Shown here piece after piece: positions 5,401 to 38,191 of a stretch of 40,671 bases of DNA (its first letter is position 1; each line of letters starts with the position of its first letter). The notes below the pieces were generated by a model, which saw only the letters and a program-made list of their open reading frames with translations, was not told the DNA's origin and searched no databases. The stretch covers positions 1-40,671 of the forward strand of contig JAKITK010000026.1 of the NCBI GenBank assembly GCA_021648125.1, in the 5' to 3' direction. Origin of the DNA: Lysobacterales bacterium. Lineage in GTDB: Bacteria > Pseudomonadota > Gammaproteobacteria > Xanthomonadales > SZUA-36. The position numbers and the translations under genes were made by a program.

Positions 5401-5591
5401 TGCATTTCGCTGTTGGTGAGTGGTACATCGTTGAGGCGATCAATATCGCGGTTGTTTTCAAATAAAATCCTCGCCCAGTTGTTCAACAAATTGGTTTCAC
5501 TGGGATACAGTATAACTTCCTGCTCCCAGCCTTTGTTTTTTAGCTCATTGACTAAGGCTGTTTCAAATTCGGCTTCGGTTTTAAATGTCAT
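2424..5591 (-). CDS. hsdR: Type I restriction enzyme, restriction/translocation subunit
   Basis: HsdR is the motor and nuclease subunit of a type I restriction-modification complex. It translocates DNA using ATP and cuts unmodified DNA away from the recognition site. The 1,055-residue length is normal. The N-terminal PD-(D/E)xK nuclease is visible as D143 (GDV) with E157-L-K159 (IELK). The superfamily 2 helicase follows: Walker A TTGSGKT at 296-302, DEAH at 410-413 and motif III TGTP at 437-440, with the partner helicase domain near 'RTNRLYG'. A helical C-terminal part presumably docks on the methylase. The ATG at 5591 follows directly after the truncated bro-N frame. It belongs to the minus-strand hsd operon. 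No interruption is visible, so the enzyme should be active. Confidence 0.95.
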   Translation of the reverse strand: MTFKTEAEFETALVNELKNKGWEQEVILYPSETNLLNNWARILFENNRDIDRLNDVPLTNSEMQQIIEQIRDLKTPLKLNSFINGKTVAITRDNPDDALHLGKEVSLKIYDRQEIAAGQSRYQIVQQPQFAKKSKILHDRRGDVMLLINGMPVIHIELKRSGVPVSQAYKQIEKYSAEGVFSGLFSLVQIFVAMEPSETRYFANPGIDGKFNKDFYFNWADFNNEPINDWKGIASTLLSIPMAHQLIGFYTVADETDGVLKVLRSYQYYAANAISDKVSKTNWADNTRLGGYVWHTTGSGKTMTSFKSAQLISHSKDADKVIFLMDRIELGVQSLREYQGFASDNESVQATENTGVLITKLKSDDPANTLIVSSIQKMSNINEEVNAEGVSLQSHDIELINSKRIVFIVDEAHRSTFGDMLITIKKTFPSAIFFGFTGTPIQAENQKKYNTTSTVFGDELHRYSIADGIRDKNVLGFDPYKVLTYKDKDLRIAVALEKAKAASTSEALADPKKKQVFNHYMRKVKMAGHTDDNGKYIKGIEDELPRSQYTRTAHQKKVVEDIVDNWITLSQNNKFHALFATSSIFEAIDYYRRLKKAKPELKITALFDPNIDNLGGQGRGILFKQDGLVEIIEDYNLRYEQDFTLANHGKFKKDIAARLAHKKPYLRIEHTPAQQIDLLIVVDQMLTGFDSKWLNTLYLDKVLKFENVIQAFSRTNRLYGENEKPFGTIRYYRKPHSMERNIQDAVKLYSGDKPIGLFVEKLESNLEQLNVVYDEIVELFDNSGVANFEKLPDDVAVRGQFAKLFKEFNGHLEAAKIQGFTWDKPTYTFGKGNTKPEVTLQLDENTYLTLVLRYKELSSGDGESEGGNDVPFEIDGYLTEIDTDVIDADYMNTRFDKYLKALKQEGVDSEQIQNNVDELHKSFATLTQEEQKYANIFLNDVQRGNMIREEGKTFRDYITEYQFSAKNSQISALAQQFGVNKSEFNEKLNKLMSTGVTANNINEFGRFDDLKNGVDKAQAKAYFEKLQGENLSVFMINIKTDKLLQDFIISGGFAL

Positions 5592-5596
5592 TTATT

Positions 5597-5884
5597 TTAC
5601 TCTGTATGCATTCCCACGCAGGAGCGTTGGAACGAGACACAATCTGTTTTTCGCATCTTGCCGTCTTTAGCGCGCATTTTCAAAGCGTGACAATTTGTCA
5701 CGCTTTGGTTTCCCTCTTTTTTCAAACGCTCTTTAAGCTTACGCCAATAGGCCGTTGGGTTGACGCTATCGGTTAAAACAGCAACAACATCTACAATAGA
5801 AAAAAACCACTCTTCTTGCTCATCATCCCATAATGAACGAATACTGCTGTCATCAAATACCCTTAGTGATTCTTTTTTAGTCAT
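5597..5884 (-). pseudogene. Truncated BRO-N (phage antirepressor-like) domain protein
   Basis: The 95-residue frame has the start of a BRO-N domain: RVFDDSSIRSLWDDEQEEWFF, SIVDVVAVLTDS, then NPTAYWRKLKERLKKEG and LKMRAKDGKMRKTD. Intact relatives continue for a second domain, usually more than 150 further residues. Here the frame leaves the family after KMRKTD. The last 15 or so residues (CVSFQRSCVGMHTE) are encoded by the repetitive palindrome at 5604-5638, which also leads to the stop just before hsdR. The start overlaps the end of the rhuM fragment by 8 bases (ATGACTAA). BRO-N and RhuM genes are often found inside type I restriction operons. This copy is probably nonfunctional, although a free BRO-N domain cannot be excluded. 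Confidence 0.75.
5604..5638. repeat. Repetitive palindrome inserted at the end of the bro-N frame
   Basis: TTCCCACGC (5611-5619) and GCGTTGGAA (5624-5632) pair with a single mismatch around the loop AGGA, flanked by GCA and CGAGAC. This matches, from memory, the widespread palindrome family with core TTCCCACGC-nnnn-GCGTGGGAACGAG in gammaproteobacterial genomes. Its position exactly where the bro-N reading frame departs from its family suggests insertion or recombination at the repeat removed the rest of that gene. Confidence 0.65.
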
Positions 5885-6263
5885 TTATCAAATACTCTTT
5901 GATAAGTGCTGTTGCCCATTTTCTAAAATGCACCCCTCGGTGAGATTTCACTCGGTAACCCACCGAAATAATCACATCAAGACTGTAATATTTTACACTC
6001 TTCGTTTGAATTTTTCCTTCGATTGCACCGTGCTGAGTGGTATGTGCAAAATTTGCACATACCACTTCTTCAGTGAGTTCGCCCTCATTAAAAATATTGC
6101 GAATATGCTTTGTGATGACCGTTCTATCTCGCTGAAACAGTTCTGCTATGTGTTCAGTAGATAACCAAATAGTCTCATTCTCAAAATGTGTTTCAATTTT
6201 GACGGTGCCATCTTCGGTTTGGTAGATGATCAGTGGGTTATTTTTTTTATCATTCATCATCAA
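5877..6263 (-). pseudogene. rhuM: Truncated RhuM-family protein
   Basis: The 128 residues match the N-terminal part of the RhuM (virulence RhuM) family: IIYQTEDGTVKIETHFENETIWLS, the helix-turn-helix-like segment IAELFQRDRTVITKHIRNIF, VCANFAHT, and YYSLDVIISVGYRVKSHRGVHFRKWA followed by KEYLI. Intact members are around 330 residues and continue with a lysine-glycine linker and an MDDERLK-type motif. This frame stops at LIND, so more than half is lost. It starts 7 bases after hsdS and overlaps the bro-N start. The family role is unclear; in hsd operons it is a frequent passenger. The deletion that fused it to bro-N is inferred. Confidence 0.8.
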
Positions 6264-6270
6264 TCACTTC

Positions 6271-7608
6271 TCACACAAACATCTTAGCCAAGCAAGCTTG
6301 TTTGATCTGTTTGAGTTTTTTGAGCTGGCTTTGGTGTTGGGTTAGGAGGGTGTCGAGGGTTTTGAAGAGTTTGCCGATTTTTGTTTGTTCTTTGGTACAA
6401 TTTGGAAAGTTAATAGATGTATTTTGTATTGCCGATTTAGATATTGAAAGTACCTTTGTACCCTGCATTAAAAACAAAAGTTGATCATGGTATGCAAACG
6501 AATTCATATAATAGCCGAGATATTTCGATGAAAAAGGCAGCACAGGTCTAACCGCAATTGTATGCAGTCCTGAAAAAATAATTTCTTCTCCAATATTTAC
6601 TAACTCAGTACACTTGCCAACTGTTTTATCTTCTGCGGCATCTGCAATAATTACATCACCATCGTGCAACTTTGTAGATTTCAATTTATGGGTGAAATTG
6701 TTATTCGTAATAAATGGTATTATTTCTTTTTTTATATCTAGTACTTCGCCAAATTTAATCAAAACATCCCCATAATGCACATTCTTGGATAATCCGAAGT
6801 CGTAGTTTAATTCAGCCCTAGAGAGAGTGTTGTTAGGTATGTTTGCAAAAGTGTCACTAAACTCCTTCTCTTCCCACGCCCCACTAAAGCCCTTAAAACG
6901 AATTTCAGGTTCGTCTTTTCCCTGCTTGGGGAACATCTTTTCGAGCAGGGATTTTTTAAGGTTTAACAGCTTGTCATGCTTTTGCTGATGCTGGGAAATA
7001 AGGGTATCGAGCTGTTGGAAATAGTTGCCGATTTTGGTTTGTTCGAAAAATTCGGGTAATGCTAATTGAATTTTTTGTAATGATTCTTGGTTGATATTTG
7101 TATTAGCAGAACTAGTTGCACTTGCAAGAATTTGTTTTCTAATATAGGTAATAGAATAAATAAAGCGACTAAAATTTACAGCCATTTCTAACTTAGGCCT
7201 GAATCGGATAATAAATCCGGAATATGTTGTATTTTCAAAGTTTTTGTAAATTACTGCTGCTTCTCCAACACCCTCAGGCTTGACTGAAGAGCGGATAAAA
7301 AGAACATCTCCTTTTTGAAGGCTATAATCCTTTCTTTGGGTTGCAGTGCTCACAGCAAAACCTAAACCATTATTACTAACTACATTTTTTCCAAACACAT
7401 CTTGTAAATTTACAAAAGGGTAACCGTGCCCCATTGCTTCTTTACTGAAATTCATTCCATTTTTAAGTTCACCGACTTCACCTAGAGTTCTTTCTTCCCA
7501 CGCCCCACTAAACCCCTTAAACCGAATCGCAGGTACTTTGAGTGATGAATTATTAGTGCTGAATGATGAATGTTCAGTTCTGAGTGTTTTGTCTTTTTCA
7601 TTCATCAT
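6271..7608 (-). CDS. hsdS: Type I restriction-modification DNA specificity subunit
   Basis: HsdS recognises the bipartite DNA target and positions two HsdM subunits. The 445 residues show the expected duplicated layout. A target recognition domain follows PAIRFKGFSGAWEER (residues about 26-40), then a central helical conserved region (EQTKIGNYFQQLDTLISQHQ...). The second half repeats the signature (EIRFKGFSGAWEEKEF) and ends in a second helical region (EQTKIGKLFKTLDTLLTQHQ). The two halves are near-exact copies around IRFKGFSGAWEE, a site where recombination can shuffle specificity. The first 25 residues (MMNEKDKTLRTEHSSFSTNNSSL) are low complexity and encoded by degenerate heptamers. The start codon directly follows the hsdM stop. 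Confidence 0.94.
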   Translation of the reverse strand: MMNEKDKTLRTEHSSFSTNNSSLKVPAIRFKGFSGAWEERTLGEVGELKNGMNFSKEAMGHGYPFVNLQDVFGKNVVSNNGLGFAVSTATQRKDYSLQKGDVLFIRSSVKPEGVGEAAVIYKNFENTTYSGFIIRFRPKLEMAVNFSRFIYSITYIRKQILASATSSANTNINQESLQKIQLALPEFFEQTKIGNYFQQLDTLISQHQQKHDKLLNLKKSLLEKMFPKQGKDEPEIRFKGFSGAWEEKEFSDTFANIPNNTLSRAELNYDFGLSKNVHYGDVLIKFGEVLDIKKEIIPFITNNNFTHKLKSTKLHDGDVIIADAAEDKTVGKCTELVNIGEEIIFSGLHTIAVRPVLPFSSKYLGYYMNSFAYHDQLLFLMQGTKVLSISKSAIQNTSINFPNCTKEQTKIGKLFKTLDTLLTQHQSQLKKLKQIKQACLAKMFV

Positions 7609-7611
7609 TCA
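7560..7611 (-). repeat. 13-bp inverted repeat from heptamer arrays over the hsdM/hsdS junction
   Basis: On the minus strand TGAATGATGAATG (7611-7599) contains the hsdM stop and the hsdS start codon. CATTCATCATTCA (7572-7560) lies 26 bases further inside hsdS and is its exact complement. Both arms are part of degenerate 7-base repeats: ATGCTGA-type units upstream, and about seven CAYTCAK-type units downstream from roughly 7581 to 7533. A hairpin in the mRNA would enclose the hsdS initiation codon. Confidence 0.7.
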
Positions 7612-10245
7612 TAACTCAGCATTCAGCATTAACTTAAATTCAGCCAGTGCCTGCTTATCAAAGGCGTTACCCTCTAGCGCGTCAATCAAGCTTGCCAGCT
7701 CTTTTTCACTCTCTTGAATGTCGTTGGCAATGTCGCCATAGGTGGTGGCGTATTTGTCGGCTAGGTGTTGCACTTGGCGGGTGAGTTGGTTGATGAGGTC
7801 ATCGGGCAGTTTGTTTAGTTCGGCAAGCAGTGGGCTAATCCATTTAAGTTCTAGCAGTTCATGCACTTGCTCATCGCTTAAGTTTTCGATGGTGGTTTTG
7901 GTTTGCAGGTGCAGTGCTTCACTATCGGCTTTGAGGGATTTTTTAAATTTTTTCTCTTCGCTAATCAAGGCATCGACGTTTAGAATTTTGGCTTCATAGC
8001 TTTCTTGGTCTGCGTTCCCAAATGCGCCGTTGGTTTTTATTTCGGCCTTGAATTTCTTGGCGGCTTTAATTACGACGGCATTAACAAAACCGTCGTTGCT
8101 TTCTTTAATGGTGTCGGCTTCTTTTTCTTCTTCAGAGAGCGATTCTAATAGGGTTTCAAATTCGGCACTGATTTCAGCGAGGCGATTTTCTTGTTGCTTG
8201 AGTGCGTGCAGTTCATCATTGAGGTAAGTGCGTTGCACTAAATTAAACGGCAGTATATGTCCCATCCAGCCGTCTTGTACTTCGGCATCTTTGCCTTTGA
8301 CTTTTTTGCTGACCATGCGCGGGTCAACCTGTTTACTGACCGCAAAGCCTTCACTTTGGAGCATTTCACAATCGGTGGCGATGGTTTGCCAGCTATTATC
8401 TAACAGTTGATACGCTTGGTATTTGTCGATTAAGGCAATGGGTTTTAAGCGTGTAAACAGCTCGGTGCTAAGCACGGCTTCTTGTTGGGCGATGTTTATT
8501 TTTGAGTTAAGGCTTTGCCCTTGCTGATCCGCTCTATCCATAAAGGGCGTGATGAGTTCTTTTTTTAGGTAGTCGTCAAAACCTGTAAAGGCCGTTAAAA
8601 AGTCTTGAGTAAATGCCTTAACTTGCGGGTGCTGCTTAATCGTTTTGTTTAACGCGTCTGCGGCTATTTTTAATTGTGAATAATCGCTAGAGGTTTTCGT
8701 AAATAAGGTGTTACGCAAGTCAGGAAAGGCTTGCCAATAGCCATCGAGTTGGTTGATCTCTTTTTCTGGAATTCCGCCGAGCATAGTGGCATGTAAGTCC
8801 CAGCTCTCGGCTTCAATTGAGGCATCAACATACCTTGGTATATTGAGGTTGTAGTCATTATCCCGAATAGTCTGTTTGCTCACCACTTTGGCGTATTTAG
8901 GGTGGGTTTCGCGGTTAATAACGGTGTCGGCGATGCGTTTAATGTCTGAGGCTTGCAGTTTGTTGTTTTTGCCGACTTTTAAAAAGTGTTTTGAGGCGTC
9001 AATAATCAGCACATCGGTATTGGTTCGCTTTTGCCTTAACACTAAAATGGTGGTTGGAATGCCCGTGCCAAAGAAAATGTTGGCAGGCAAACCGATAATG
9101 GTCTCTATATGGTTTTGTTCGATCAGTTGTTTACGAATCTTGCCTTCTTCACCCCCCCTAAATAACACGCCGTGGGGCAGTACAATGGTCATGATACCAT
9201 CGGGCTTGAGGTGATACAGATCATGCAGTAAAAAGGCATAGTCGGCTTTGGTTTTGGGGGCTAAACCAAAACGCGCATAACGGGGGTCGTTTTCTTTATG
9301 CTCAGGGTCCCATTGTTGCGAATACGGCGGGTTGGAGACCACGGCATCTACATACAGTGGGTTGTAGGAACCCATTGGGTCATTCTCGTCAAAGTATGGC
9401 CAATCGTCTTCCAGGGTGTCGCCGTTTCGGGTGACTATATTGTTGGGCAATATGCCGCGCATCACCAAGTTCATGCGGGTGAGGTTGTAGGTGTTGGCTT
9501 TGAGTTCTTGGGCGTAGTATTTTATGTTGTTTTTATCATTCACATGCTTGGCAACACTGCTACCTATGTTGATAAGCAACGAACCCGAGCCGCTGGTGGG
9601 ATCGTAAATTTCTATATTTTCTCTATCTTTTAGATGGTGTGCGACAATTTCTGACATTAATAATGATACTTCGTGCGGCGTATAGAATTCGCCTGCTTTT
9701 TTACCGGCATTGGCGGCAAACTTTTCGATGAGATATTCGTAGATATAACCCAGCACATCATAGCCTTGCTTGCCGTCCATGGGGATGTCTTTAATGAGTT
9801 GCAACAGGTCGCTAATGGCTTTGGTTTGTTTGGCCGCATTTTCACCTAATTTACTTAAACCCGTTTGCAGGGTGTCAAAAACACCGTCGAAGAGTTTTTT
9901 GTGGTTAGGGTGTATTAAACGGGCAAAAGCAGATAGAGCATCGCGAACATCGGAGACATCAAAGTCGCTGCCTGCATTTAGCCACGTTGAAAACAGGTCA
10001 TCATAGGCAATGAAATAACCCAGTTCTTTTTTAATGTATTTAACCGTGTCGGCATCGTTTTCACTTAATGCGGCGATTTCTTTTTCTGACATGCCTTGGT
10101 TTTTAGCAAACTCAACTTCTTGATCAGATAAGTATTTATAAAAAATGAAACCCAAGATGTAGTCTTTGTATTCGTTGGCTTCAATTTTTGACCGCATTTT
10201 GTTAGCGGATGCCCAAATTTTCGCGGCTAATTGTTGTTTATTCAA
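7609..10245 (-). CDS. hsdM: Type I restriction-modification DNA methyltransferase subunit
   Basis: HsdM transfers a methyl group from SAM to N6 of adenine at the sites chosen by HsdS, protecting host DNA. The 878-residue protein starts with the helical HsdM_N domain (MNKQQLAAKIWASANKMRSK). It carries the pre-motif AGEFYTPHEV (184-192), the SAM-binding motif I DPTSGSGSL (215-223) and the catalytic motif NPPY (305-308). After about residue 500 there is a long helical extension with acidic coiled-coil stretches, as in the large HsdM subgroup. The start is a TTG at 10243-10245 preceded by AAAAGGA, a good ribosome site. It is the first gene of the hsd operon. No disruption is visible. Confidence 0.95.
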   Translation of the reverse strand: MNKQQLAAKIWASANKMRSKIEANEYKDYILGFIFYKYLSDQEVEFAKNQGMSEKEIAALSENDADTVKYIKKELGYFIAYDDLFSTWLNAGSDFDVSDVRDALSAFARLIHPNHKKLFDGVFDTLQTGLSKLGENAAKQTKAISDLLQLIKDIPMDGKQGYDVLGYIYEYLIEKFAANAGKKAGEFYTPHEVSLLMSEIVAHHLKDRENIEIYDPTSGSGSLLINIGSSVAKHVNDKNNIKYYAQELKANTYNLTRMNLVMRGILPNNIVTRNGDTLEDDWPYFDENDPMGSYNPLYVDAVVSNPPYSQQWDPEHKENDPRYARFGLAPKTKADYAFLLHDLYHLKPDGIMTIVLPHGVLFRGGEEGKIRKQLIEQNHIETIIGLPANIFFGTGIPTTILVLRQKRTNTDVLIIDASKHFLKVGKNNKLQASDIKRIADTVINRETHPKYAKVVSKQTIRDNDYNLNIPRYVDASIEAESWDLHATMLGGIPEKEINQLDGYWQAFPDLRNTLFTKTSSDYSQLKIAADALNKTIKQHPQVKAFTQDFLTAFTGFDDYLKKELITPFMDRADQQGQSLNSKINIAQQEAVLSTELFTRLKPIALIDKYQAYQLLDNSWQTIATDCEMLQSEGFAVSKQVDPRMVSKKVKGKDAEVQDGWMGHILPFNLVQRTYLNDELHALKQQENRLAEISAEFETLLESLSEEEKEADTIKESNDGFVNAVVIKAAKKFKAEIKTNGAFGNADQESYEAKILNVDALISEEKKFKKSLKADSEALHLQTKTTIENLSDEQVHELLELKWISPLLAELNKLPDDLINQLTRQVQHLADKYATTYGDIANDIQESEKELASLIDALEGNAFDKQALAEFKLMLNAEL

Positions 10246-20395: not shown

Positions 20396-21283
20396 TTATT
20401 CTAAGCCTAACAAGGCACCTCTTTCAATCAGTTCAATTGCGACCCTTTCCGCTTCCCGGATAGGCACGGAATTTTTCTCGAAGCGACCCCGCTTATTCAG
20501 CTGGTGAATATAATCTTGCAGCTTGCCACGCGCTGACTCGGCACCCAGCACCCTCACCGGACGGTCACTGGCGCAGGCTTCAGCCAGCATATTGATAGAA
20601 TCGCCGCTAACCCAAAATTCAGCCGCGCAGGCAAGGGCTTTTCGATAGCCGTCTGCATCATCGCTTTCTACCAAGCTGTGGTCTGAGGCATGCATAGACC
20701 AAGCCCTGAGCCGGCGTACAATCGCTCGCGGCGTCCGCCTTGAGCAGCAAACCGTTACCGGCATACTTTGCTGCTGTGCCTGTTCCAACCAGTTATTCAG
20801 ACTAGATTCATCCCAGCTCAGGTAGTCTGTAGCTCCACCAAGCAATAAGACTAGGCGCGAGTTATCCCGGCTTAATGGCGGCGGTGTTGTTACCAGAGAC
20901 CCAAGAAAATTAATAATATTAGGGCCCTGAAGATAATCATGCATGGGGATAAGCAACCAGTCCCAGTTGTGTTCAAGAGCCCGTTTACTAACCACAGGAT
21001 TAAGGATTTGTATGCTGTTTACACTGGATCCAAACCGTTTTTTCAGCGCCAACGAACAGGCTGCCGCACGGCGCCCGCATCCGATAAGCAGGCTCGCCGG
21101 TGGTAATGTGATTAGTGCCTCGGCTGCAGCCAGCGAAACCGGTTCAATCCGCGTGCGTGAGTTGTAATTATCCGTTGATGTTCTAATCTGTGCCTTAATC
21201 AAGGACGCCGCTAATGCTGCCGATTGATGCAGGTGGCCTGCACGCCCGTCATCCAGTAATAAGATAACTTTATCGTTACTCAT
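20396..21283 (-). CDS. Mitochondrial-fission ELM1-like protein
   Basis: The 295 residues match the ELM1 family (Pfam PF06258), named for the plant protein but widespread in bacteria next to LPS genes: LLLDDGRAGHLHQSAALAASL at the start, IGCGRRAAACSLALKK, NPVVSKRALEHNWDWLLIPMHDYLQGPNII, VLLLGGATDYLSW and SGDSINMLAEACASDRPVRVL. The fold resembles GT-B glycosyltransferases, and the last motif is positioned like a nucleotide-sugar site. A role in LPS core assembly is therefore plausible but unproven. It converges with glnE and diverges from the zinc-finger gene. Confidence 0.82.
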   Translation of the reverse strand: MSNDKVILLLDDGRAGHLHQSAALAASLIKAQIRTSTDNYNSRTRIEPVSLAAAEALITLPPASLLIGCGRRAAACSLALKKRFGSSVNSIQILNPVVSKRALEHNWDWLLIPMHDYLQGPNIINFLGSLVTTPPPLSRDNSRLVLLLGGATDYLSWDESSLNNWLEQAQQQSMPVTVCCSRRTPRAIVRRLRAWSMHASDHSLVESDDADGYRKALACAAEFWVSGDSINMLAEACASDRPVRVLGAESARGKLQDYIHQLNKRGRFEKNSVPIREAERVAIELIERGALLGLE

Positions 21284-21370
21284 AAAATTTAAGTCAGGCG
21301 TTTGAATGATTTATTCCCTTATCTTGTCCGTGGGCGTTAAAATAACAGATTATCGACTGGAGAAACTACC

Positions 21371-21577
21371 GTGGCCCACACAACCGATGCTAACAACCCG
21401 GACCTGATTCCTGCAAACACTCAGCAATCCTACCAGATCAGCCACAATGACCTGCCATTAAGCTGTCCCATGCCGAATATGAAAGTCTGGGATTCGCACC
21501 CACGAGTATTCTTACCACTAGATGCAGATGGTAAGGCCCACTGCCCTTACTGCGGTGCTGACTATAGCCTCGCCTGA
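21371..21577 (+). CDS. Zinc-finger protein of the CHCC family
   Basis: A 68-residue protein whose C-terminal half (SCPMPNMKVWDSHPRVFLPL...GKAHCPYCGADYSL) is the CHCC zinc-finger (Pfam PF10276), related to the mitochondrial complex I subunit NDUFS6. The metal ligands are the first cysteine, the histidine in DSHPRVFL and the CPYC pair. In gammaproteobacteria these proteins sit beside LPS and waaL-type genes, but the role is not established. The start is a GTG at 21371 after the ribosome site GGAG in ACTGGAGAAACTACC. A TTG-initiated glycosyltransferase gene follows 33 bases downstream. Confidence 0.9.
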   Translation: MAHTTDANNPDLIPANTQQSYQISHNDLPLSCPMPNMKVWDSHPRVFLPLDADGKAHCPYCGADYSLA

Positions 21578-21610
21578 ATCTCAAACAACTAGACTAACAG
21601 GATAAAACCC

Positions 21611-22708
21611 TTGCATATTGTTCATTGTCTGGCATCCATGCAAACGGGTGGCTCCGAGCTGGTAGTGCTGGAGTTGACTGACGCCGCGTGCAAGCAGGGG
21701 CACCGGGTTAGTGTGTTTTCTGCAGCCGGGAATTTATGTTCACGACTGCATGCCAGCGGGGCTGAACACCTGCATTGGCCCATCGGTAAAAAAAAGCTCC
21801 AGACCTTGAAATTAATCCAGCGCATGAGCAATTGGTTAACCGACAACCCTGCCGACATTGTGCATGTACATTCACGCCTGCCTGCCTGGGTTGCCTGGAA
21901 GGCTGTTCAGGCTCTGCCGCAACAACAACGCCCGCATTTTATTTCCAGCGTACACGGGCACTATTCGGTTAGCAAATACAGTGCTGTAATGACCTATGGC
22001 GAAAGAGTTATTGCGGTCTCAGAGAGTATTGCCCGCTATATTCGCGAGAATTATCCACAAGCTGATGCATCTAAAGTTGTGGTGATTCCCCCCGGGGTTG
22101 ATCATCTGCGCTTCCGGCACCAGCAGATAGAACCTGAGTGGTTGTCAGCATTTGCGTGTGAGTTTCCCAGCATCGGTGAACACAAATTGTTGCTGTTACC
22201 GGGCCGAATTACCCGTCTAAAAGGGCATAAATGTTTTGTCCGCCTGCTCGCCGGACTGATCGCTGCTGGAGAAAATGTGCATGGCCTGATTGTCGGCCCA
22301 ATATCTTCGGGTAAACAACATTATCTGGATGAAATTTCAGAATTAGCCCTGGATTTGGGAATTAGTGAACGCCTCGACTATGCCGGTAACCGCGAAGACA
22401 TGCCGGAATTAATGCAACGAGCCGAGCTGGTAGTAAACCTTTCCATCAAGGCCGAGGCCTTTGGTCGGACCGTTAATGAAGCGCTTAGCGTGGGCACTCC
22501 TGTAGTCGCCTGGGATCGAGGCGGTGTTCATGAATTACTGGGTGAGTTATATCCCCAGGGACGGGTCGAGCCGGGTGATGAAGCCGCCCTACTGGAAATC
22601 TGTCGGAAACTACTGCACCAAGCCGGTGAAATCAGCAGTAATCAAGCTTACAGTCTTGCGGCCACAAATACTGCCACCCTTGATCTGTACGCGGAGCTTT
22701 GCCGATGA
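21611..22708 (+). CDS. GT4-family glycosyltransferase
   Basis: A 365-residue GT-B retaining glycosyltransferase: HIVHCLASMQTGGSELVVLELT at the N-terminus, HVHSRLPAWVAWKA, SSVHGHYSV, VIAVSESIARYI, then the sugar-nucleotide half VVIPPGVDHLRF, LLLPGRITRLKGHKCFVRLLAGL and the signature EAFGRTVNEALSVGTPVVAWDRGGVHELL. The start is a TTG at 21611 preceded by AGGATAAAA. It gives the family's usual beginning; the first ATG would cut off the first strand. It overlaps the next gene by ATGA, so they are coupled. The context suggests LPS core synthesis. The donor and acceptor sugars cannot be read. Confidence 0.92.
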   Translation: MHIVHCLASMQTGGSELVVLELTDAACKQGHRVSVFSAAGNLCSRLHASGAEHLHWPIGKKKLQTLKLIQRMSNWLTDNPADIVHVHSRLPAWVAWKAVQALPQQQRPHFISSVHGHYSVSKYSAVMTYGERVIAVSESIARYIRENYPQADASKVVVIPPGVDHLRFRHQQIEPEWLSAFACEFPSIGEHKLLLLPGRITRLKGHKCFVRLLAGLIAAGENVHGLIVGPISSGKQHYLDEISELALDLGISERLDYAGNREDMPELMQRAELVVNLSIKAEAFGRTVNEALSVGTPVVAWDRGGVHELLGELYPQGRVEPGDEAALLEICRKLLHQAGEISSNQAYSLAATNTATLDLYAELCR

Positions 22709-23940
22709 TTGCCTCAGGCTACCAAAAGAACCCTTGGTGGGCAGCTGTGCTGATCGCCGCCTATCCCATGCTGCTGCCGTTTTCAAGAACGGCTGAAGTC
22801 CCGCTTAGCCTGTTGGCAATTACCGGCATGGTATTGCTCTGGCGGCATGGGCGCGCTATCAAACATTGGCCTACTTCACGCGCCCTGCTACTGGTGTTTT
22901 TATGTATGTGGCTGCCAATGGTAGTGTCCTCAATAGACGCCTTTAATCCCTCAGGCTCCTGGTATCACAGTCTGGTGTCCCTGCGCTTTTTCTTTGCAGC
23001 TTTAGCCATGGCCTGGTTGTCCCGTTTCAGCGTGGTGCGCGAACGCGCCATGTTACTAATATCCTTGGTGCTGGGTTTTTGGGTGGTCGACAGCCTGATA
23101 CAATTTATTTTCGGGGTGGATTTGCTCGGTTTCCCGAATACGGCCGACCGCCTCAACGGCCCTTTCGGTATGCGACATTTCCGGCTCGGCATGATCCTTG
23201 CTGTATTTTCACCGATTCTATTTGAACAGGTACGCCGTAGTTGGGGCGGCTACGGCCTGCTATTGGTCATACCACTAACCGTATTTGTGGTGATTCTTAG
23301 CGGGGTGCGTTCCGGTTGGGTAATCATCGCCCTAGCCGTACCGGTGTTTTTGTTTTGGGCCGCGCGCCGGAATAACTGGCCGCTTTTGCGCATCAACGCA
23401 ATCAGCATTGTCGGTGCTATTTTGCTGCTAAGCTTGGCTTGGGTGAGTTCACCACTGGTGCAGGAGCGAATTGAGCTCAGCATGGGTCTAGGCTCTGGCG
23501 ATATGCAGACCACCGACTACGCCTTATCGAACCGCATACCTATCTGGGAAACCTCTCTGCGAATATTTAAAGCCTACCCACTGCTTGGCGTTGGCATTGA
23601 TAGCTATCGCGAGGCCTATGTGGTTTACGCTGCAGCTGACGACCCGCATGTGGCCACTAATGGTATTGGTGGCTATCATGCGCACAACCTAATTCTGGAG
23701 GTTCTGTCAGTTACCGGCTTGCTTGGTCTGCTTGGATTAATCTTGGCCAGCCGCATTATGTATCGCCTATGGCAGCAGGCGGATGCCGCTTCACGCCAGT
23801 CTATGCTGCCATTTGCGCTGGCATTGGTGCTACTGATGTTGCCGTTTAATTCGCACTTCTCCCACTATGGTACTTTCCTGTCCTCGGTTAGCTGGTGGTT
23901 GCTCGGACTGTGGATGGGCGCCTTCCGTCGGCGCGAATAA
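22705..23940 (+). CDS. O-antigen ligase / polymerase (Wzy/WaaL superfamily) membrane protein
   Basis: The 411 residues contain about ten hydrophobic segments and the periplasmic Wzy_C/O-antigen ligase region (Pfam PF04932): VDLLGFPNTADRLNGPFGMRHFRLGMIL, VVILSGVRSGWVI and IPIWETSLRIFKAYPLLGVGIDSYREAY, with YHAHNLILEVLSVTGLLGLLG near the end. The histidine in AHNL is a conserved feature of ligases that join O-antigen to lipid A-core. I choose the ATG at 22705 because it overlaps the upstream stop as ATGA; a TTG two codons earlier is in frame. The third LPS gene of the operon is 3 bases behind its stop. Whether it is a ligase or a polymerase is undecided. Confidence 0.85.
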   Translation: MIASGYQKNPWWAAVLIAAYPMLLPFSRTAEVPLSLLAITGMVLLWRHGRAIKHWPTSRALLLVFLCMWLPMVVSSIDAFNPSGSWYHSLVSLRFFFAALAMAWLSRFSVVRERAMLLISLVLGFWVVDSLIQFIFGVDLLGFPNTADRLNGPFGMRHFRLGMILAVFSPILFEQVRRSWGGYGLLLVIPLTVFVVILSGVRSGWVIIALAVPVFLFWAARRNNWPLLRINAISIVGAILLLSLAWVSSPLVQERIELSMGLGSGDMQTTDYALSNRIPIWETSLRIFKAYPLLGVGIDSYREAYVVYAAADDPHVATNGIGGYHAHNLILEVLSVTGLLGLLGLILASRIMYRLWQQADAASRQSMLPFALALVLLMLPFNSHFSHYGTFLSSVSWWLLGLWMGAFRRRE

Positions 23941-23943
23941 AAC

Positions 23944-24738
23944 ATGCCTTCTGTTAGCAACAAACCTCATCTCAGTGCGGTAATCACTACTTTCAATAAT
24001 GAAACCACCCTGAGGCGGTGTTTAAGTTCTTTGAGTCTTAACGAGCTACCGTTGACAGATGAAATACTTGTGCTCGATTCCGGCAGCACAGATAGCAGCG
24101 TTGCCATTGCCACAAGTCACGAGGCGAGAGTTGAAACCAGAGCTTTCAGTAACTACAGCGAACAAAAACAACGGGCAATTGAGCTTGCAGAGCACGAGTG
24201 GATTTTATTGCTGGATGCGGATGAGTGGTTGTCACAAGAACTGCAGGAACGCCTACAGCAATGGCGGCAACAATCACCAAGCGCTGACGCTTACCGTTTG
24301 CAACGGCGTGAGTGGCTGCTATGGCAATGGCAGCATAAATGGAGTAAACCCGTTACCCCGATTCGCCTGTTTGACCGTAGAACAACTCGAATGAATAGCG
24401 TACCGGTGCATGCAGCATTGCAGTGTTCTGGCCGAGTGGAGACGCTGGCGGCAGCGCTTTTGCATACAGGTGAAGCTGATATCCATAGCAAAGTTGAGAA
24501 AATCAACGCCTATTCCAGCGGCCAAGCCCAGTGGCGTAGCTCACGCCGGTTTCTGCGCTTGCGGATACTGGTATATCCTGGGTTTGCTTTTTGGCGTGAA
24601 TACCTACTGCGACGACAGTTTTTAAATGGTTGGGCGGGCTTTATTGCGGCTCGCAGTGCGGCCTTTTACGCCTTTCTTAAGTATACCAAAGCCTATGAGT
24701 TAACGCGTAAAGAGCAGAACGATCAGTCACTGGAATAA
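23944..24738 (+). CDS. WaaE-like GT2 family glycosyltransferase
   Basis: A 264-residue inverting glycosyltransferase: SAVITTFNNETTLRRCL, the LVLDSGSTDSSVAIA segment, then SEQKQRAIELAEHEWILLLDADEWLSQEL. The DADE motif is the metal-nucleotide site of GT2 enzymes. The EQKQ and RLFDRRTTRMN blocks recall the LPS core beta-1,4-glucosyltransferase WaaE/KdtX group. The C-terminus FIAARSAAFYAFLKYTKAYEL is also characteristic. It lies 3 bases after the ligase gene, the last of the plus-strand LPS operon. Its 3' end overlaps the convergent acyltransferase by 16 bases. The precise acceptor is not readable. Confidence 0.88.
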   Translation: MPSVSNKPHLSAVITTFNNETTLRRCLSSLSLNELPLTDEILVLDSGSTDSSVAIATSHEARVETRAFSNYSEQKQRAIELAEHEWILLLDADEWLSQELQERLQQWRQQSPSADAYRLQRREWLLWQWQHKWSKPVTPIRLFDRRTTRMNSVPVHAALQCSGRVETLAAALLHTGEADIHSKVEKINAYSSGQAQWRSSRRFLRLRILVYPGFAFWREYLLRRQFLNGWAGFIAARSAAFYAFLKYTKAYELTRKEQNDQSLE

Positions 24739-25658
24739 AAGGGCGGCTCACCCGGGGGTCGGGTTTTAAAGCGCCGGTGAATCCACCAATATTGTTCCGG
24801 GGCCATCCGGATCATCTGCTCCAATACCGCATTGACCTGTTGTAAGTCCCGCTGATCATCGCCACTGAAATCATCCAATGGCGGAAGTATTTCCAGACGA
24901 AAGCGATTACCGGGTAAGCGTATGGGCATCATTGGAATAACCACCGCTTTGCCGGCTTTAGTCAGACGCAACGGGGCGGTCATAGTGGCTGTTTGAATTC
25001 CAAAAAACGGAACGAACAAGCTTTGTTCACCGCGCATATCCATATCGGCGGTATACCAAAGCGCCCCGCCTTCACGCAAGTACCGCATCGCTGTGCGCAC
25101 TTCGCGTTTCTTGATCATGTAAACAGATTTGCGCGTACGCACCCGCAGTGCCATGTACTCCATTACCGGGTTTTTATGCGGTCGATAAATGGCGCCGATA
25201 GGGGTTTTCGCTGTCAACAAACCTGAGCCAATTTCCATGCAGGTGCTATGCACGCTTAACAGTAGAATGCCTTTGCCCTCACGCTGGGCGGTCTCAATAT
25301 GCTCGAAGCCTTGAATGCTACCAATATGCTTAATAAACGCCCGAGATCGCCACCAGACATAGATCGTTTCGCCCGGCATACTCGCCAATGCCGTCAGGTT
25401 TTGATCCAGCATCTCGGCTCTTTCCTGCGGGCTTTTATCGGCAAAGCAGGCTGCCAGATTCTGTTTAATTATAGCTACCCTTTTTTTCATAAAGGGTTTA
25501 ATCAATGGCTTCAGGCTGCGGCTCAGAGCCATCCCCAGCGCAAATGGCAGCCGCGAATATAACCACGAAAGCCCCAGCAACAGCCAGCTCAACCAATGCT
25601 TTGGATGAAGCAAAGGTTTTAGCGGTGGTAGCGGGGCGCTTTTAACGGGTGGTGTCAT
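24723..25658 (-). CDS. LpxL/HtrB-type lipid A late acyltransferase
   Basis: The protein (311 residues from ATG 25658) belongs to the Lpx acyltransferase family (Pfam PF03279), which adds secondary acyl chains to Kdo-lipid A in the inner membrane. Visible are the N-terminal hydrophobic helix WLSWLLLGLSWLYSRLPFALGMAL, the catalytic HxxxxE in LLSVHSTCMEIGS, the YRPHKNPVMEYMAL block, and MTAPLRLTKAGKAVVIPMMPIRL with C-terminal EQYWWIHRRFKTRPPGE. An upstream ATG at 25754 would add 32 residues, but these run through a repeat arm and are unlike the family, so I chose the inner start. It converges with the WaaE-like gene and completes the LPS cluster. Confidence 0.88.
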   Translation of the reverse strand: MTPPVKSAPLPPLKPLLHPKHWLSWLLLGLSWLYSRLPFALGMALSRSLKPLIKPFMKKRVAIIKQNLAACFADKSPQERAEMLDQNLTALASMPGETIYVWWRSRAFIKHIGSIQGFEHIETAQREGKGILLLSVHSTCMEIGSGLLTAKTPIGAIYRPHKNPVMEYMALRVRTRKSVYMIKKREVRTAMRYLREGGALWYTADMDMRGEQSLFVPFFGIQTATMTAPLRLTKAGKAVVIPMMPIRLPGNRFRLEILPPLDDFSGDDQRDLQQVNAVLEQMIRMAPEQYWWIHRRFKTRPPGEPPFYSSD

Positions 25659-25704
25659 TGCGCTATTGTCGGGGATTTTTGCTGTAACTGCTAGTATTGC
25701 CGAG

Positions 25705-25810
25705 GTAGGGTGCGTTAAGCTTGCGAACGCACCGGCGTTTTCGGGTAATTCCAAAGTGGGTTAAATATTTATCGCCCGGTGCGTTACGCCTGCGGCTAAC
25801 AGCACCCTAC
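25705..25810. repeat. Inverted pair of GTAGGGTGCGTT-type repeats
   Basis: GTAGGGTGCGTTAAGC..GAACGCACCGG (25705-25735) and its imperfect complement (25776-25810, CCGGTGCGTTACGCC...AGCACCCTAC) lie head to head with 40 bases between. Each arm is itself internally palindromic (GTGCGTT ... AACGCAC). This is the common GTAGGGTGCG..GCACCCTAC repeat family of many proteobacteria. The left arm lies inside the non-conserved N-terminal extension possible for the acyltransferase. Confidence 0.65.
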
Positions 25811-34615: not shown

Positions 34616-35269
34616 CTAAACGATAATATCCGCCACTCGCTCAAACAATTCAATATCCAGTGCGTTGGCCTGAACCACCTGCGTCAACTGAGCCGCTGAA
34701 ATTTCAGCCCGGGCTTGGTTGTCGCCAATGTTTTTATGGGGAACCTGATACGCAGCCCAGCCCAGTCGAGTAGTTGCCGCACGCACAAACGCCTCAAACT
34801 GCTCTACTTTCCCCACCAGTGCAAATTTTCGTAAGCGCTTTTCCGCTTGCTCCACATTGGCCCGGCAAGGCTCGCCGTCTATACCCGCCAAGCGTCGAAC
34901 AAACAGATTTCGGTAGTGGCGTGCCTGCGGGTTTTCACACATTTCACGCAGACCGTCTTGCTTGTTGATGAGTGCATGCAAGGGGTGTTCATACCTACGG
35001 ATATGCTGATAGTTTGAGAGAAACCTGTCTACCGGGTCACGCAATAAAGTGATATAACTACACTCCCGATCCGTTAACTGGCGGTGCAAACCGTAATACA
35101 TATGCCCGTGCAGGCAAGCAACACCTAGCTCGGGAGGACTAAACGCCAACGGGTCCTCTGGATAACCCGGATCATACAGCTCAAATGCCAGGCCATACTG
35201 TTGTCGTAACAGAGCCTCCATTGAAGTCCCGCCGCATTTTTCCATGTGCATAGAAATTAACATCGACAT
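34616..35269 (-). CDS. Sulfotransferase family protein
   Basis: A 217-residue protein whose first motif, MEKCGGTSMEALLRQQYG (near residue 9), matches the 5'-phosphosulfate loop of PAPS-dependent sulfotransferases of the heparan-type family (Pfam PF03567). LLRDPVDRFLSNYQHIRR (about residues 74-91) is the 3'-phosphate site. PAPS would supply sulfate for a carbohydrate or lipid acceptor. The short length fits bacterial members. Three ATG codons occur in the first 9 residues and the start is uncertain. It ends the four-gene minus cassette (36 bases or less between genes), whose other members also modify surface molecules. Confidence 0.82.
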   Translation of the reverse strand: MSMLISMHMEKCGGTSMEALLRQQYGLAFELYDPGYPEDPLAFSPPELGVACLHGHMYYGLHRQLTDRECSYITLLRDPVDRFLSNYQHIRRYEHPLHALINKQDGLREMCENPQARHYRNLFVRRLAGIDGEPCRANVEQAEKRLRKFALVGKVEQFEAFVRAATTRLGWAAYQVPHKNIGDNQARAEISAAQLTQVVQANALDIELFERVADIIV

Positions 35270-35275
35270 ATCCAG

Positions 35276-36166
35276 TTACTCTTCCTGCTTGAATTCTGAA
35301 TTCAAAAAGGCCGAATACTGCCCCCAGAGCTGCCAAGCCGCAGAATCATGCCGAATAAACGGATCAAAAAATGCCGCTAGTTCCTGGATAGATTCCTTCA
35401 GGTTTGATTCCTGAGCAATGGGTGTACCGATGTGCAATTGCCTGCGGCCCGTCTCAAAATCAACCATCATCACATAAGGCACAACCGGCCGATTGAGTTG
35501 TTTGGCAAGCGCTACAACGCCGTTAACAAAATAAGTTGGGCGCCCTAGAAACTCTACATGAAAAGCATTTATGTTCTTCCCTTTGGGTACATCGATCATT
35601 GAAAGTTGGTTGTTGCCTGCGGCAAGACTGGCTTTAAAGCGTTCTGTGAAGCCTTTTCCCGTGTAGGTAACCGCGGCACCCTGGGCGCGCAACACAGCTT
35701 TTTCATAAGCCCTTAAATACACCTGCATAGGCCAGGAAAAGGCTTTTTGCCATTCATCAAAAGGTCGCATAATTAAGGAAATTGGGGAGGCGTTCACACG
35801 GATATGCCGTAATGCCCAAAACCCTGCGCCAAAATGCATGCTATTGGCGATAAACGGCGTGTTGTCCGGCCATTTACCAAAAACATCAATATGTCGCACC
35901 ATCCATGCATCACCGCGGAACCTGCTTAACCAGGGGTCTACCGCATCAATAATTTTATACATTCTGTAATGGCGGCACCAAACTTCATCGGCGACAAATT
36001 GGCCGGTTTGCTCTACGCCGGTCACTGCTTGCTGTGTTTCTTGCTTAAATAACCAACTGAAGCGCGACATAACCCGCGCCAAACGAAAAAACAGCCCCCA
36101 CGGCAATATCACTGCCAATGCAGGCAGTACAATCAAACCGGTTATTTGTCCGCGTAAACCAATCAT
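35276..36166 (-). CDS. LPLAT/HtrB-like acyltransferase
   Basis: The 296-residue protein resembles lysophospholipid or lipid A acyltransferases, with the core segment FIANSMHFGAGFWALRHIRV (H111), then LIMRPFDEW, SMIDVPKG and RPVVPYVMMVDF as the acceptor side. In LpxL enzymes the histidine is followed five residues later by an acidic residue (HxxxxE/D); here that position is F116. A hydrophobic stretch at residues 8-27 suggests an inner-membrane anchor. The start overlaps the deacetylase stop by ATGA. Acyl donor and acceptor are not known. It could be a divergent active enzyme or one that has lost the canonical dyad. Confidence 0.7.
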   Translation of the reverse strand: MIGLRGQITGLIVLPALAVILPWGLFFRLARVMSRFSWLFKQETQQAVTGVEQTGQFVADEVWCRHYRMYKIIDAVDPWLSRFRGDAWMVRHIDVFGKWPDNTPFIANSMHFGAGFWALRHIRVNASPISLIMRPFDEWQKAFSWPMQVYLRAYEKAVLRAQGAAVTYTGKGFTERFKASLAAGNNQLSMIDVPKGKNINAFHVEFLGRPTYFVNGVVALAKQLNRPVVPYVMMVDFETGRRQLHIGTPIAQESNLKESIQELAAFFDPFIRHDSAAWQLWGQYSAFLNSEFKQEE

Positions 36167-37014
36167 GACTTAGGCCGTGAAGCAGCAAATGAGCCATCTA
36201 AAATCGCAGCAAACTGCTGCGGGGTCTGCCAGTCACGGCCGCAAACATACCGCGGAATGTTCCAGCGACTCGTTGCCAGCGTCACATGCGCAGGCTGAGT
36301 GCTGAATGCTGCGCGAATTCCGGTTCTGTTGATGTTTTCCGGTAGGTAAGTGTCGCGCATATAAACACTGGCCGCGCCATAGGGATAAGCAAAATATTGG
36401 GGTTTTACACCGTCGGTGCCGCTGGCAATAACTTGACCGGCACGGAAAACCTGTAGTTCACACTGGGCAAACGAATCCACGCTTACAAAGCGGGCATGCG
36501 GTAACTTTTCTCCGAGCACATCCGGCTGCATATTATGTAGATGATCCCAACCATGGCTCTGGACATCAATGATACCTTCGGCTTTTACGGCTGCCCACCA
36601 GTCTGCTTGCATCCAGCCCAAGCCAAACAATGACTCACGATCCATTTGTTCACGCACGGCTGCATCGGCTAGCACAAAAGTTGTTGCCCGAACCTGGTGC
36701 GGCGTATCAACTGATTGCTGTTCGCGAAAGTCTTTGAGGATGCTTAAAAAAGAAGTCTGCAAGCCATACCCTGGGACTATTTCATCGCTAATTTCCAGTT
36801 TGCAACCATCATCGAAAGTGATACACACAGCATCATCCAAACTGCCGTCATCAACACCAGCAAGCAACCAGTCGACTAGCGTCGTCAGGCTGATCAAACG
36901 CTTACCGTGTGTGTGCAGATCTTCGAGATCGGCTTTTAATGAAACATGATCGTTTTCACCATAGCGGTTGCTACGGATGTTTTGTGAATGATAGGTAAAT
37001 ATCGGGCAGCTCAA
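36163..37014 (-). CDS. Polysaccharide deacetylase (NodB-like)
   Basis: The 283 residues contain the NodB homology motifs: ITFDDGC (residue about 65, metal and base aspartates), VQSHGWDHLH (metal H-x3-H) and FAYPYGAAS. Such enzymes remove acetyl groups from N-acetylated sugars, such as chitin-like, peptidoglycan or capsular glycans. No signal peptide is evident, so the substrate is probably an intracellular glycolipid or glycan precursor, or export is by other means. It is coupled to the acyltransferase by ATGA and lies 12 bases downstream of the methyltransferase. The substrate is not inferred. Confidence 0.82.
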   Translation of the reverse strand: MSCPIFTYHSQNIRSNRYGENDHVSLKADLEDLHTHGKRLISLTTLVDWLLAGVDDGSLDDAVCITFDDGCKLEISDEIVPGYGLQTSFLSILKDFREQQSVDTPHQVRATTFVLADAAVREQMDRESLFGLGWMQADWWAAVKAEGIIDVQSHGWDHLHNMQPDVLGEKLPHARFVSVDSFAQCELQVFRAGQVIASGTDGVKPQYFAYPYGAASVYMRDTYLPENINRTGIRAAFSTQPAHVTLATSRWNIPRYVCGRDWQTPQQFAAILDGSFAASRPKS

Positions 37015-37026
37015 AATGCCAACCTG

Positions 37027-37605
37027 TCAATTAACTTGCGGCTTAGTGCACTCAAAATACATATAAGTCGCATTTTCAGGGGATCTTACATCGAGGCCAC
37101 GAAGTACTTCTGGCCCGGCCTGTTGATAAGCCACTTGCTCAGCCTCGAAACCGCAGCTATCGAGAACTTGTGACAAGCTGCGATTATCGTAAACGAAATT
37201 ATGTAAATCGCGAATGCCAATATTAACAACTTCTGCACTGGTTCCAAGCTGCAATGGAATTTCAACTTCCCGTTGCCACAGTTCGGCAAGCTTGTTTTCG
37301 CCAGTACGCACGTCCTCCAGATAGGCTTCCAGTAAACGCAGTAAATCCGGTGACAGCAAGCGCATAACACCGCCGAGCTTAAGGATGCGAAAACACTCGC
37401 TAAGAAAGTGCCTGCCATCAGCAAGTGAAAATTGACACAATACGCCCTCGCTATGAATATAGTCCACGCTGTTATCATCGAAAGGAAAGCGCTGACTTAA
37501 GTTGGCAACAACCTGAGGCTTGAAGTCTGGGTTGTAATCGACATTAATCCAACCCGGCAAAATGTTTGGGCCACTGCCGAGGTGTACTTTTACAAATTCT
37601 TGCAT
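37027..37605 (-). CDS. Class I SAM methyltransferase (type 11-like)
   Basis: The 192-residue protein has the opening HLGSGPNILPGWINVDYNPDF, a SAM-binding loop in place of the more usual GxGxG (GSGPN), followed by FPFDDNSVDYIHSEGVLCQFSLADG and LSECFRILKLGGVMRLLSPDL, as in methyltransferases that sit in polysaccharide biosynthesis clusters. It is the first gene of the four-gene minus cassette, so a sugar or glycolipid acceptor is possible. Ppa lies just upstream (37 bases) on the same strand, so read-through could occur. Confidence 0.82.
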   Translation of the reverse strand: MQEFVKVHLGSGPNILPGWINVDYNPDFKPQVVANLSQRFPFDDNSVDYIHSEGVLCQFSLADGRHFLSECFRILKLGGVMRLLSPDLLRLLEAYLEDVRTGENKLAELWQREVEIPLQLGTSAEVVNIGIRDLHNFVYDNRSLSQVLDSCGFEAEQVAYQQAGPEVLRGLDVRSPENATYMYFECTKPQVN

Positions 37606-37642: not shown

Positions 37643-38191
37643 CTAGAAATTGGGTTGATCCGGCGCGTTTTTAAACCGCTCTCTAGATTCTAGAATTTCC
37701 GCACGAGCAGCTTCAACCCCTTGCCAGCCACCAATTTTTACCCATTTGCCGCGTTCTAAATCTTTATAATGATCAAAGAAGTGCGAAATGGTATCCAGCA
37801 ACATTTCCGGCAGATCGCGAACATCATTCACATGCCGATAGTAGCCGGTGACACTGTCTACTGGTACGGCAATAATTTTGGCATCATCACCCGCTTCGTC
37901 TTCCATATGCAAAACACCCACCGGACGGCAGTTGATGATGGAGCCTGGCACCAGCGGCATAGGCATTGCCACCAACACATCTACCGGATCGCCGTCGCCG
38001 CAAAGGGTATGCGGTACATAGCCATAATTACACGGGTAGTGCATGGCTGTTTTTAGCATGCGATCGACAAATATAGCGCCGGATTTTTTATCGACTTCGT
38101 ACTTAATCGCCGGGCTGTTCATGGGGATTTCGACAATTACATTAATATCATTAGGGATATCGTAACCGGCAGGTACCAGATCAAAACTCAT
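37643..38191 (-). CDS. ppa: Soluble inorganic pyrophosphatase (family I)
   Basis: Ppa splits pyrophosphate to phosphate, driving many biosynthetic reactions. The 182-residue length fits family I. Conserved motifs are [20 protein letters not shown], the metal-binding [18 protein letters not shown] (active-site aspartates), the [20 protein letters not shown] region and [20 protein letters not shown] ribosome site AAGGA lies before the ATG. It diverges from hppA. Whether the downstream methyltransferase cassette is cotranscribed is unclear. Confidence 0.98.

Follow-up and report, generated by a model that had tools for sequence, protein, structure and literature searches.

A methyltransferase (MT), a polysaccharide deacetylase (DEAC), and an acyltransferase homologue (ACYL) encoded on this Lysobacterales contig form a genuinely linked gene set that recurs in several families of the order. 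Because the three genes recur side by side in several families, their products probably modify the same envelope molecule. In the window (the whole stretch of 40,671 nucleotides analysed), the trio is followed by a sulfotransferase gene (SULFO). The original prediction described four minus-strand ORFs with short gaps and an ATGA overlap, and the coordinates (Table 1) and spacing were as claimed, with 12 bases between MT and DEAC, −4 (ATGA) between DEAC and ACYL, and 6 between ACYL and SULFO. Judged by this spacing, the four genes are operon-like and may be co-transcribed. In the cassette region, neither promoter-like matches (6, versus a mean of 7.1 in shuffles) nor terminator-like matches (9, versus a mean of 5.7, s.d. 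3.2) were clearly above the shuffled sequences. Two neighbours had been omitted from the earlier description: ppa lies 37 bases upstream of MT on the same strand, so the operon is possibly longer than four genes, with ppa as a possible first gene of the transcript, and prmA is convergent toward the cassette, 16 bases from the SULFO stop.

Table 1. Positions of the cassette genes and of other features of the window
Feature	Position	Strand	Remark
MT, class I SAM-dependent methyltransferase, 192 aa	37027..37605	-	First gene of the conserved trio
DEAC, polysaccharide deacetylase, 283 aa, TTG start	36163..37014	-	Polysacc_deac_1
ACYL, predicted LpxL/PatA-fold acyltransferase homologue, 296 aa	35276..36166	-	His111; Phe replaces the HX4D/E acid
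SULFO, Sulfotransfer_2-type sulfotransferase, 217 aa	34616..35269	-	Lineage-specific addition, 3' end
ppa, inorganic pyrophosphatase, housekeeping	37643..38191	-	Pyrophosphatase, 200.9 bits
LPS core/ligase genes, outside the cassette	20396..25754		PF06258, PF13439/PF00534, PF04932, PF00535, PF03279

The linkage was surveyed in 348 genomes of the order Lysobacterales. Fifty-nine genomes contained strong matches to both DEAC and ACYL, and in 21 of these the two were no more than 5 kb apart, against approximately 0.25 pairs expected by chance, an expectation that assumes random placement in a 3.4-Mb genome and ignores shared ancestry. Fisher's test on a sample of 64 DEAC domains gave p = 7e-18, also ignoring shared ancestry. 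Strong MT matches numbered 19, in 18 of the 348 genomes, and 13 of them had both DEAC and ACYL within 5 kb, whereas 10 weaker MT matches had neither nearby. The expected co-occurrence in other genomes was therefore found for the trio, but not for SULFO. The genes also occur independently in relatives to some extent: a strong ACYL was absent from 54 of the 113 genomes with a strong DEAC, and a strong DEAC from 22 of the 81 with a strong ACYL, counts that omit weak matches (DEAC below approximately 130 bits and ACYL below approximately 58 bits) and are thereby reduced from at least 127 to 113 DEAC genomes and from 91 to 81 ACYL genomes. Among the matches listed, DEAC, ACYL, and MT were absent from two members of the same genus (G035, 92% complete; G033, 60%). 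A contig scan yielded 14 loci, all from entries titled MAG, and a search of plasmids with ACYL gave no match. No publication on the MT–DEAC–ACYL gene set was found in a search of open-licence PubMed Central papers.

The arrangement of the genes varied among genomes (MT–DEAC–ACYL, DEAC–ACYL–MT, MT–ACYL–DEAC, and divergent DEAC/ACYL), and the cassette homologues of the distant genome G159 contained two 4-base overlaps. In one genome, G045, ACYL and DEAC were encoded in a single 569-aa frame. The fusion is documented by that one genome, its junction contains seven consecutive A, and the stretch inspected showed no start codon from which the deacetylase could be read separately. The ACYL half was matched by our own ACYL profile and not by Pfam, and the fused frame was followed by an overlapping Sulfotransfer_3 gene. 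These features bear on the idea that the genes have stayed together through inheritance of an ancient arrangement while their products act on different molecules, which we regard as improbable and retain mainly for SULFO. The pair lies near accBC–prmA or ppa/hppA in 12 of the 21 pair genomes, as inherited order would predict, and DEAC and ACYL are each also found alone, with SULFO a late addition. However, the pair or trio also occurs in other neighbourhoods (RNase P RNA and, by eye, dnaE-like and rpsF/rplI-like genes) with its order shuffled, ACYL and DEAC share one frame in G045, and the label "MT+ACYL", carried by 14 rows of the DEAC tree (one being the second deacetylase of G028), requires six changes on that tree, at least five of them on well-supported branches. 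The proposal that the genes act together is thus supported for MT, DEAC, and ACYL, given the cross-family linkage and the fusion, whereas SULFO lies outside the conserved set.

SULFO scored 30.9 bits against Sulfotransfer_2 (PF03567; cut-off 22). In the sister genome G034, prmA is directly beside ACYL and there is no SULFO at the site, and of the 41 other genomes with distant SULFO matches among the 348 searched, none had the match on a contig with the trio. These observations rule out SULFO as a member of a conserved four-gene set; it is a lineage-specific, late addition at the 3' end of the cassette. Of the 20 other genomes with the ACYL–DEAC pair, 7 have sulfotransferases of other families alongside it. 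The genome encodes an APS kinase (201.8 bits) that could supply PAPS.

MT (Methyltransf_11, 32.8 bits; cut-off 21.2) and DEAC (Polysacc_deac_1, 35.9 bits; cut-off 23.1) also exceeded the Pfam cut-offs, so the identities first assigned to MT, DEAC, and SULFO stand, DEAC belonging by this score to carbohydrate esterase family 4. Residues D68, D69, H154, and H158 of DEAC were invariant in 14 sequences, and we take them, from knowledge of the family, to be the catalytic Asp and the metal-binding Asp-His-His. Folds were checked by predicted structure for two of the four proteins, DEAC and ACYL, with agreement in both cases. The DEAC model (pLDDT 88) aligned best with PplD (Z 21.8), IcaB (21.0), and PgaB (20.6), sharing with them the fold, including the N-terminal part (Z 18–22), and the DD and HxxxH residues. 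Unlike these proteins, DEAC has no signal peptide visible by eye and is therefore probably cytosolic, and its scores against the NCBIfam IcaB and PgaB models were far under the cut-offs. DEAC is thus a predicted aminosugar deacetylase of the PgaB/IcaB type. A signal-less polysaccharide deacetylase, 2901, is also required for GlcN in the LOS core of Acinetobacter baumannii and, according to the available sections of that paper, is thought to act at the cytoplasmic face on the GlcNAc of an envelope glycolipid (PMC10936431); the likeness is one of type. In those sections, the partner of 2901 is a glycosyltransferase, and no LPLAT, methyltransferase, or sulfotransferase partners appear.

ACYL scored 16.1 bits against Lip_A_acyltrans, under the cut-off of 22.3, and only two of eight homologues matched this family (PF03279) at E ≤ 1. 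A sequence search against solved structures gave nothing useful, and the fold is known from the predicted model (pLDDT 79), which aligned with PatA (5f2t_A; Z 18.0, rmsd 3.5, 234 aligned residues) and with LpxM (5kn7; Z 16.2, rmsd 4.2, 250 aligned residues, spanning residues 1–296), the next fold being PlsC (Z 8.3). On this model, ACYL is an LPLAT-fold (PatA/LpxM) protein, and the earlier view of it as an acyltransferase-type protein is borne out despite the low Pfam score. It resembles the lipid A and PIM acyltransferases PatA, LpxM, and LpxL in its fold, in a conserved His and Asp, and, in the window protein, in an N-terminal helix, but shows 10–13% identity to PatA and LpxM in the structural alignments and lacks the acid of the HX4D/E motif. 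None of 32 ACYL homologues had this acid (His+5), which both canonical LpxL proteins from this genome retain, whereas the His was kept in 30 of 32 (G057 and G048 lack it) and Asp77 and Asp192 in all 32. In the alignment, Asp192 falls at the position of the conserved LpxL Asp, and it is a candidate counterpart of PatA Glu200 and VexE Asp532. The G159 protein seems, by eye, to have a shorter N-terminus without a clear hydrophobic helix. ACYL is unlikely to act as a standard lipid A acyltransferase, since PF03279 is already represented in the genome by three canonical genes (two near-identical and perhaps from duplicate contigs) that are separate from ACYL and keep the Glu.

The family-wide loss of the acid could mean that ACYL is not a catalyst and instead scaffolds or binds DEAC at the membrane, a role in which the fusion would fit a membrane tether and the two members without His would be unsurprising. 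We give this little credence, considering the retention of the His in 30 and of Asp192 in all of the 32 sequences, and considering that VexE, the glycolipid-anchor acyltransferase of Vi-antigen synthesis, as described in the available sections of its paper, is an active LPLAT-fold enzyme that carries Tyr at the acid position and tolerates Phe (PMC9597891). According to the same sections, VexE acylates UDP-GlcNAc at C-6, the enzyme that adds a second acyl chain to the Vi anchor had yet to be identified as of 2022, and a deacetylase is not mentioned (PMC9597891). ACYL (by its predicted model) and VexE both have an LPLAT fold nearest to PatA/LpxM, have both lost the HX4D/E acid and kept the His, and are both expected to act on an aminosugar precursor. 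ACYL (296 aa) differs in having no N-terminal TPR domain, and no linked Vi-type polymerase was seen.

We consider it an even proposition that MT, DEAC, and ACYL work in the cytosol or at the inner leaflet on one aminosugar-containing envelope glycan or glycolipid precursor; the substrate, the order of steps, and the acyl position are what we infer here. DEAC would strip N-acetyl from a GlcNAc-type sugar carried either on UDP or on a lipid. ACYL, tethered to the membrane through an N-terminal helix, would transfer a fatty acyl group from acyl-ACP or acyl-CoA to the same sugar by a His-Asp arrangement, as in PatA and VexE, rather than by HX4D/E. MT would methylate this sugar, and in this genome SULFO would add sulfate from PAPS. 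The product would most likely be a lipidated, partly deacetylated hexosamine that ends or decorates a surface glycan.

The window also contains an LPS core/ligase locus (Elm1-family, GT4, Wzy_C-type ligase, GT2, and canonical LpxL genes, by Pfam), a candidate source of the substrate. The substrate might accordingly be the LPS core oligosaccharide, with DEAC producing GlcN either from UDP-GlcNAc or on the core during its assembly, and with ACYL, MT, and SULFO decorating this core before ligation, a reading to which we assign roughly one chance in four. The Acinetobacter LOS core locus is a parallel, as it combines, in the available sections of the paper, the signal-less deacetylase with an Elm1-like protein (PMC10936431). 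However, the trio lies 9 kb from the core locus, is elsewhere in other genomes, such as beside RNase P RNA, and 5 of 64 sampled DEAC domains have a Wzm-type exporter nearby. Furthermore, we know of no LPS core sugar that carries an acyl chain, which also counts against this substrate.

These exporters lay within 5 kb of DEAC, and one such locus also contained sulfotransferase, methyltransferase, and Wzt_C genes; the Wzm profile, whose training set was four of the five loci it detects, had no match in any trio stretch examined, and the genome itself carries a Wzm/Wzt pair. Twelve of the 64 domains had none of the profiled partners nearby. The loci of this sample were chosen partly for holding a pair, so that the fractions describe the sample and not the order, and the partner profiles miss the SULFO of the window, which is uncounted there. 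A glycosyltransferase constantly accompanying the genes, sought in the original prediction, was not seen by eye inside the trio clusters. More tentatively, the single-precursor scheme may extend to a combinatorial Lysobacterales pathway to a previously undescribed envelope glycolipid, which we hold to be possible though rather doubtful. DEAC would N-deacetylate an aminosugar, which the acid-less LPLAT ACYL or an approximately 165-aa family (c6) would re-acylate; exchangeable partners would then methylate, sulfate, or oxidise it, and the product would anchor or cap a surface glycan. The c6 family had no match in Pfam (four members), NCBIfam (five members), or PDB sequences (profile), and a by-eye impression that it is GNAT-like is without support from these searches.

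The cassette had originally been likened to lipochitooligosaccharide (Nod-factor-like) decoration, and the step types (deacetylation, acylation, methylation, and sulfation) are indeed the same. This likeness to NodABCSH is confined to the types of chemical step, and such a product is extremely unlikely. In the genome, which is 96% complete, NodC (TIGR04242) gave four hits of 19–28.5 bits, none over the cut-off of 550, and below-cut-off hits also occurred in 13 of 14 control genomes. An NCBIfam scan of the four cassette proteins, up to E = 1, gave no Nod family, neither NodA nor NodB (for both of which the library presumably contains models) being listed. The acyltransferase and deacetylase are of other types, the ACYL model having the LpxL/PatA fold and the DEAC model being closest to PplD, IcaB, and PgaB, and on the NodC result and these two models the analogy is rejected.

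The origin of the lipid termini of surface glycans is only partly known. The linked and once fused deacetylase and acid-less LPLAT constitute an enzyme pair ready for assay with UDP-GlcNAc, and the ACYL family would constitute a subfamily of LPLATs whose His-Asp mechanism can be tested. If the combinatorial pathway is true, VexE-like chemistry would gain a second family, one that incorporates a deacetylation step. For the Lysobacterales, known here mainly from metagenome assemblies, the trio is a gene set by which these bacteria probably alter their surface.

The four genes proposed originally were all recovered on the minus strand, separated by 12, −4, and 6 bases, with a fifth gene, ppa, on the same strand 37 bases upstream and prmA converging from the other side. 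A Pfam scan placed the methyltransferase (MT), the deacetylase (DEAC), and the sulfotransferase (SULFO, PF03567) above the cut-offs, and the acyltransferase (ACYL) below its own (16.1 bits vs 22.3). The host genome, which includes the window as contig C96, is metagenome-assembled (3.23 Mb, 96% complete, 4.2% contamination). It contains an APS kinase gene, so a supply of PAPS for SULFO is possible.

Features of the window and their positions
Feature	Positions	Basis or content
Type I restriction system	2424-10245	HsdR 2424-5591 and HsdS 6271-7608 by Pfam; putative beyond 7608
LPS core/ligase locus	20396-25754	Pfam; contains an Elm1-family gene
SULFO	35269-34616	minus strand
ACYL	36166-35276	minus strand
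DEAC	37014-36163	minus strand
MT	37605-37027	minus strand

Among 348 genomes of the order (taken as Lysobacterales/Xanthomonadales), profile matches were found in 127 for DEAC, 91 for ACYL, and 26 for MT (E ≤ 1e-15). When only strong matches were counted, DEAC occurred in 113 genomes, ACYL in 81, and both in 59; 21 of the genomes with both had them within 5 kb of each other, where chance predicts about 0.25 pairs. Both were within 5 kb of 13 of the 19 strong MT matches, the others having DEAC only (two), ACYL only (two), or neither (two), and neither gene was near the 10 weaker MT matches. The nearest relative (G034) has the order prmA, ACYL, DEAC, MT, ppa, hppA, with the sulfotransferase absent from this place. 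In other family members the three genes adjoin accB-accC-prmA together, but DEAC and ACYL are divergent, and profile searches found none of the three in the genus members G035 and G033. The deacetylase is rare beyond the order (four outside genomes at E ≤ 1e-30 among 369 sampled from the class).

Several independent arrangements were observed. The order DEAC-ACYL-MT occurred in G159 (with two 4-base overlaps), G201, and G147, adjoining RNase P RNA in both of the two genomes examined for it, and MT-ACYL-DEAC occurred in G236 and G061. Members of c6, a family of proteins of approximately 165 amino acids, were found in ACYL-c6-c6-DEAC (G323) and DEAC-c6-ACYL (G068), and the G139 and G056 clusters included a 2OG-Fe(II) oxygenase together with a gene of the Sulfotransfer_1 type. 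A Sulfotransfer_3 gene accompanied ACYL and DEAC in G169 and G045; in G045 it directly follows and overlaps a single 569-amino-acid frame (L084:7000-8709), an apparent natural fusion whose deacetylase half alone is recognised by Pfam, the other half being recognised by our ACYL profile. Mapping the MT+ACYL label onto a tree built from 63 deacetylases took six changes, five forced by well-supported branches, against a shuffled mean of 12.4, indicating on these sequences an association that is clustered, yet gained or lost several times.

Within 3 kb of 64 sampled DEAC domains (60 loci), the partners were ACYL (23), c6 (19), sulfotransferases of the profiled kinds (18), MT (16), and the oxygenase (4), with a Wzm-type exporter within 5 kb of five; 12 had no profiled partner. 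Outside the order, one locus (L103) combined DEAC with Polysacc_synt_2, a methyltransferase, Sulfotransfer_3, a Wzt_C ATPase, and an ABC2 membrane protein. These neighbourhoods point to a role in surface glycans. No stretch holding MT, DEAC, and ACYL matched the Wzm profile, and the Wzm/Wzt pair of the host genome is on another contig. A second DEAC of this genome adjoins a c6 gene. The c6 family was seen near a deacetylase on contig C53 of the host genome (L058:7035-7616) and at 18 further loci; the members tried had no Pfam, NCBIfam, or PDB-sequence match, and the resemblance to GNAT is by eye only. Mevalonate-pathway-like genes (candidate diphosphomevalonate decarboxylase, mevalonate kinase, and HMG-CoA reductase) were also noted by eye on C53 (L058:9938-13999).

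The predicted DEAC model (pLDDT 88) was nearest to PplD, a B. anthracis deacetylase, IcaB, BC0361, and PgaB (Z 18–22), with other CE4 enzymes far lower (ArnD, Z 8.9); D68, D69, H154, and H158 were invariant in 14 sequences. DEAC is probably cytosolic, because by eye it has no signal peptide and begins directly with the first strand. The ACYL model (pLDDT 79) matched PatA (Z 18.0) and LpxM (16.2), then PlsC (8.3). None of 32 ACYL homologues had the HX4D/E acid, although 30 of them kept His and every one kept both Asp77 and Asp192; two canonical LpxL proteins encoded by the host genome retain Glu. PMC9597891 describes VexE as having Tyr at the acid position, with Phe tolerated, and acylating UDP-GlcNAc at C-6 through His and a distal Asp; by this analogy, loss of the acid need not mean loss of activity. 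In two related genomes, ACYL homologues have Tyr replacing the active-site His (L107:6664-7545 and L108:6478-7359), and the fetched stretches contain no deacetylase. Two nearly identical LpxL-type genes of the host genome (L095, contig C69; L096, contig C56), each adjoining a sigma-54-type regulator gene by eye, reflect either a genuine gene duplication or, given the contamination, an assembly that mixes two strains.

The Nod factor-like pathway originally suggested is very unlikely, given the predicted PatA/LpxM fold of ACYL, the lack of any NodC over the cut-off in the genome, and the structural neighbours of the DEAC model. Instead, DEAC and then ACYL would act in turn on one GlcNAc-type residue at the cytosolic face, MT and sulfotransferases would add further groups, and the final product would form part of a glycan or glycolipid destined for export. 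The substrate may follow either of two precedents. One is a lipid terminus of the VexE kind; the other is the LOS core of Acinetobacter, for which PMC10936431 describes a signal-less deacetylase needed for GlcN and, in the same locus, an Elm1-like gene. The LPS core/ligase locus of the window likewise contains an Elm1-family gene. The listings from searches of open-licence PubMed Central papers showed no sign of the enzyme combination, the acid-less ACYL subfamily, or the ACYL-DEAC fusion, and every enzyme of the cassette belongs to a known superfamily or has the predicted fold of one. The cassette would therefore represent envelope-glycan tailoring, a known type of function, in a new form.
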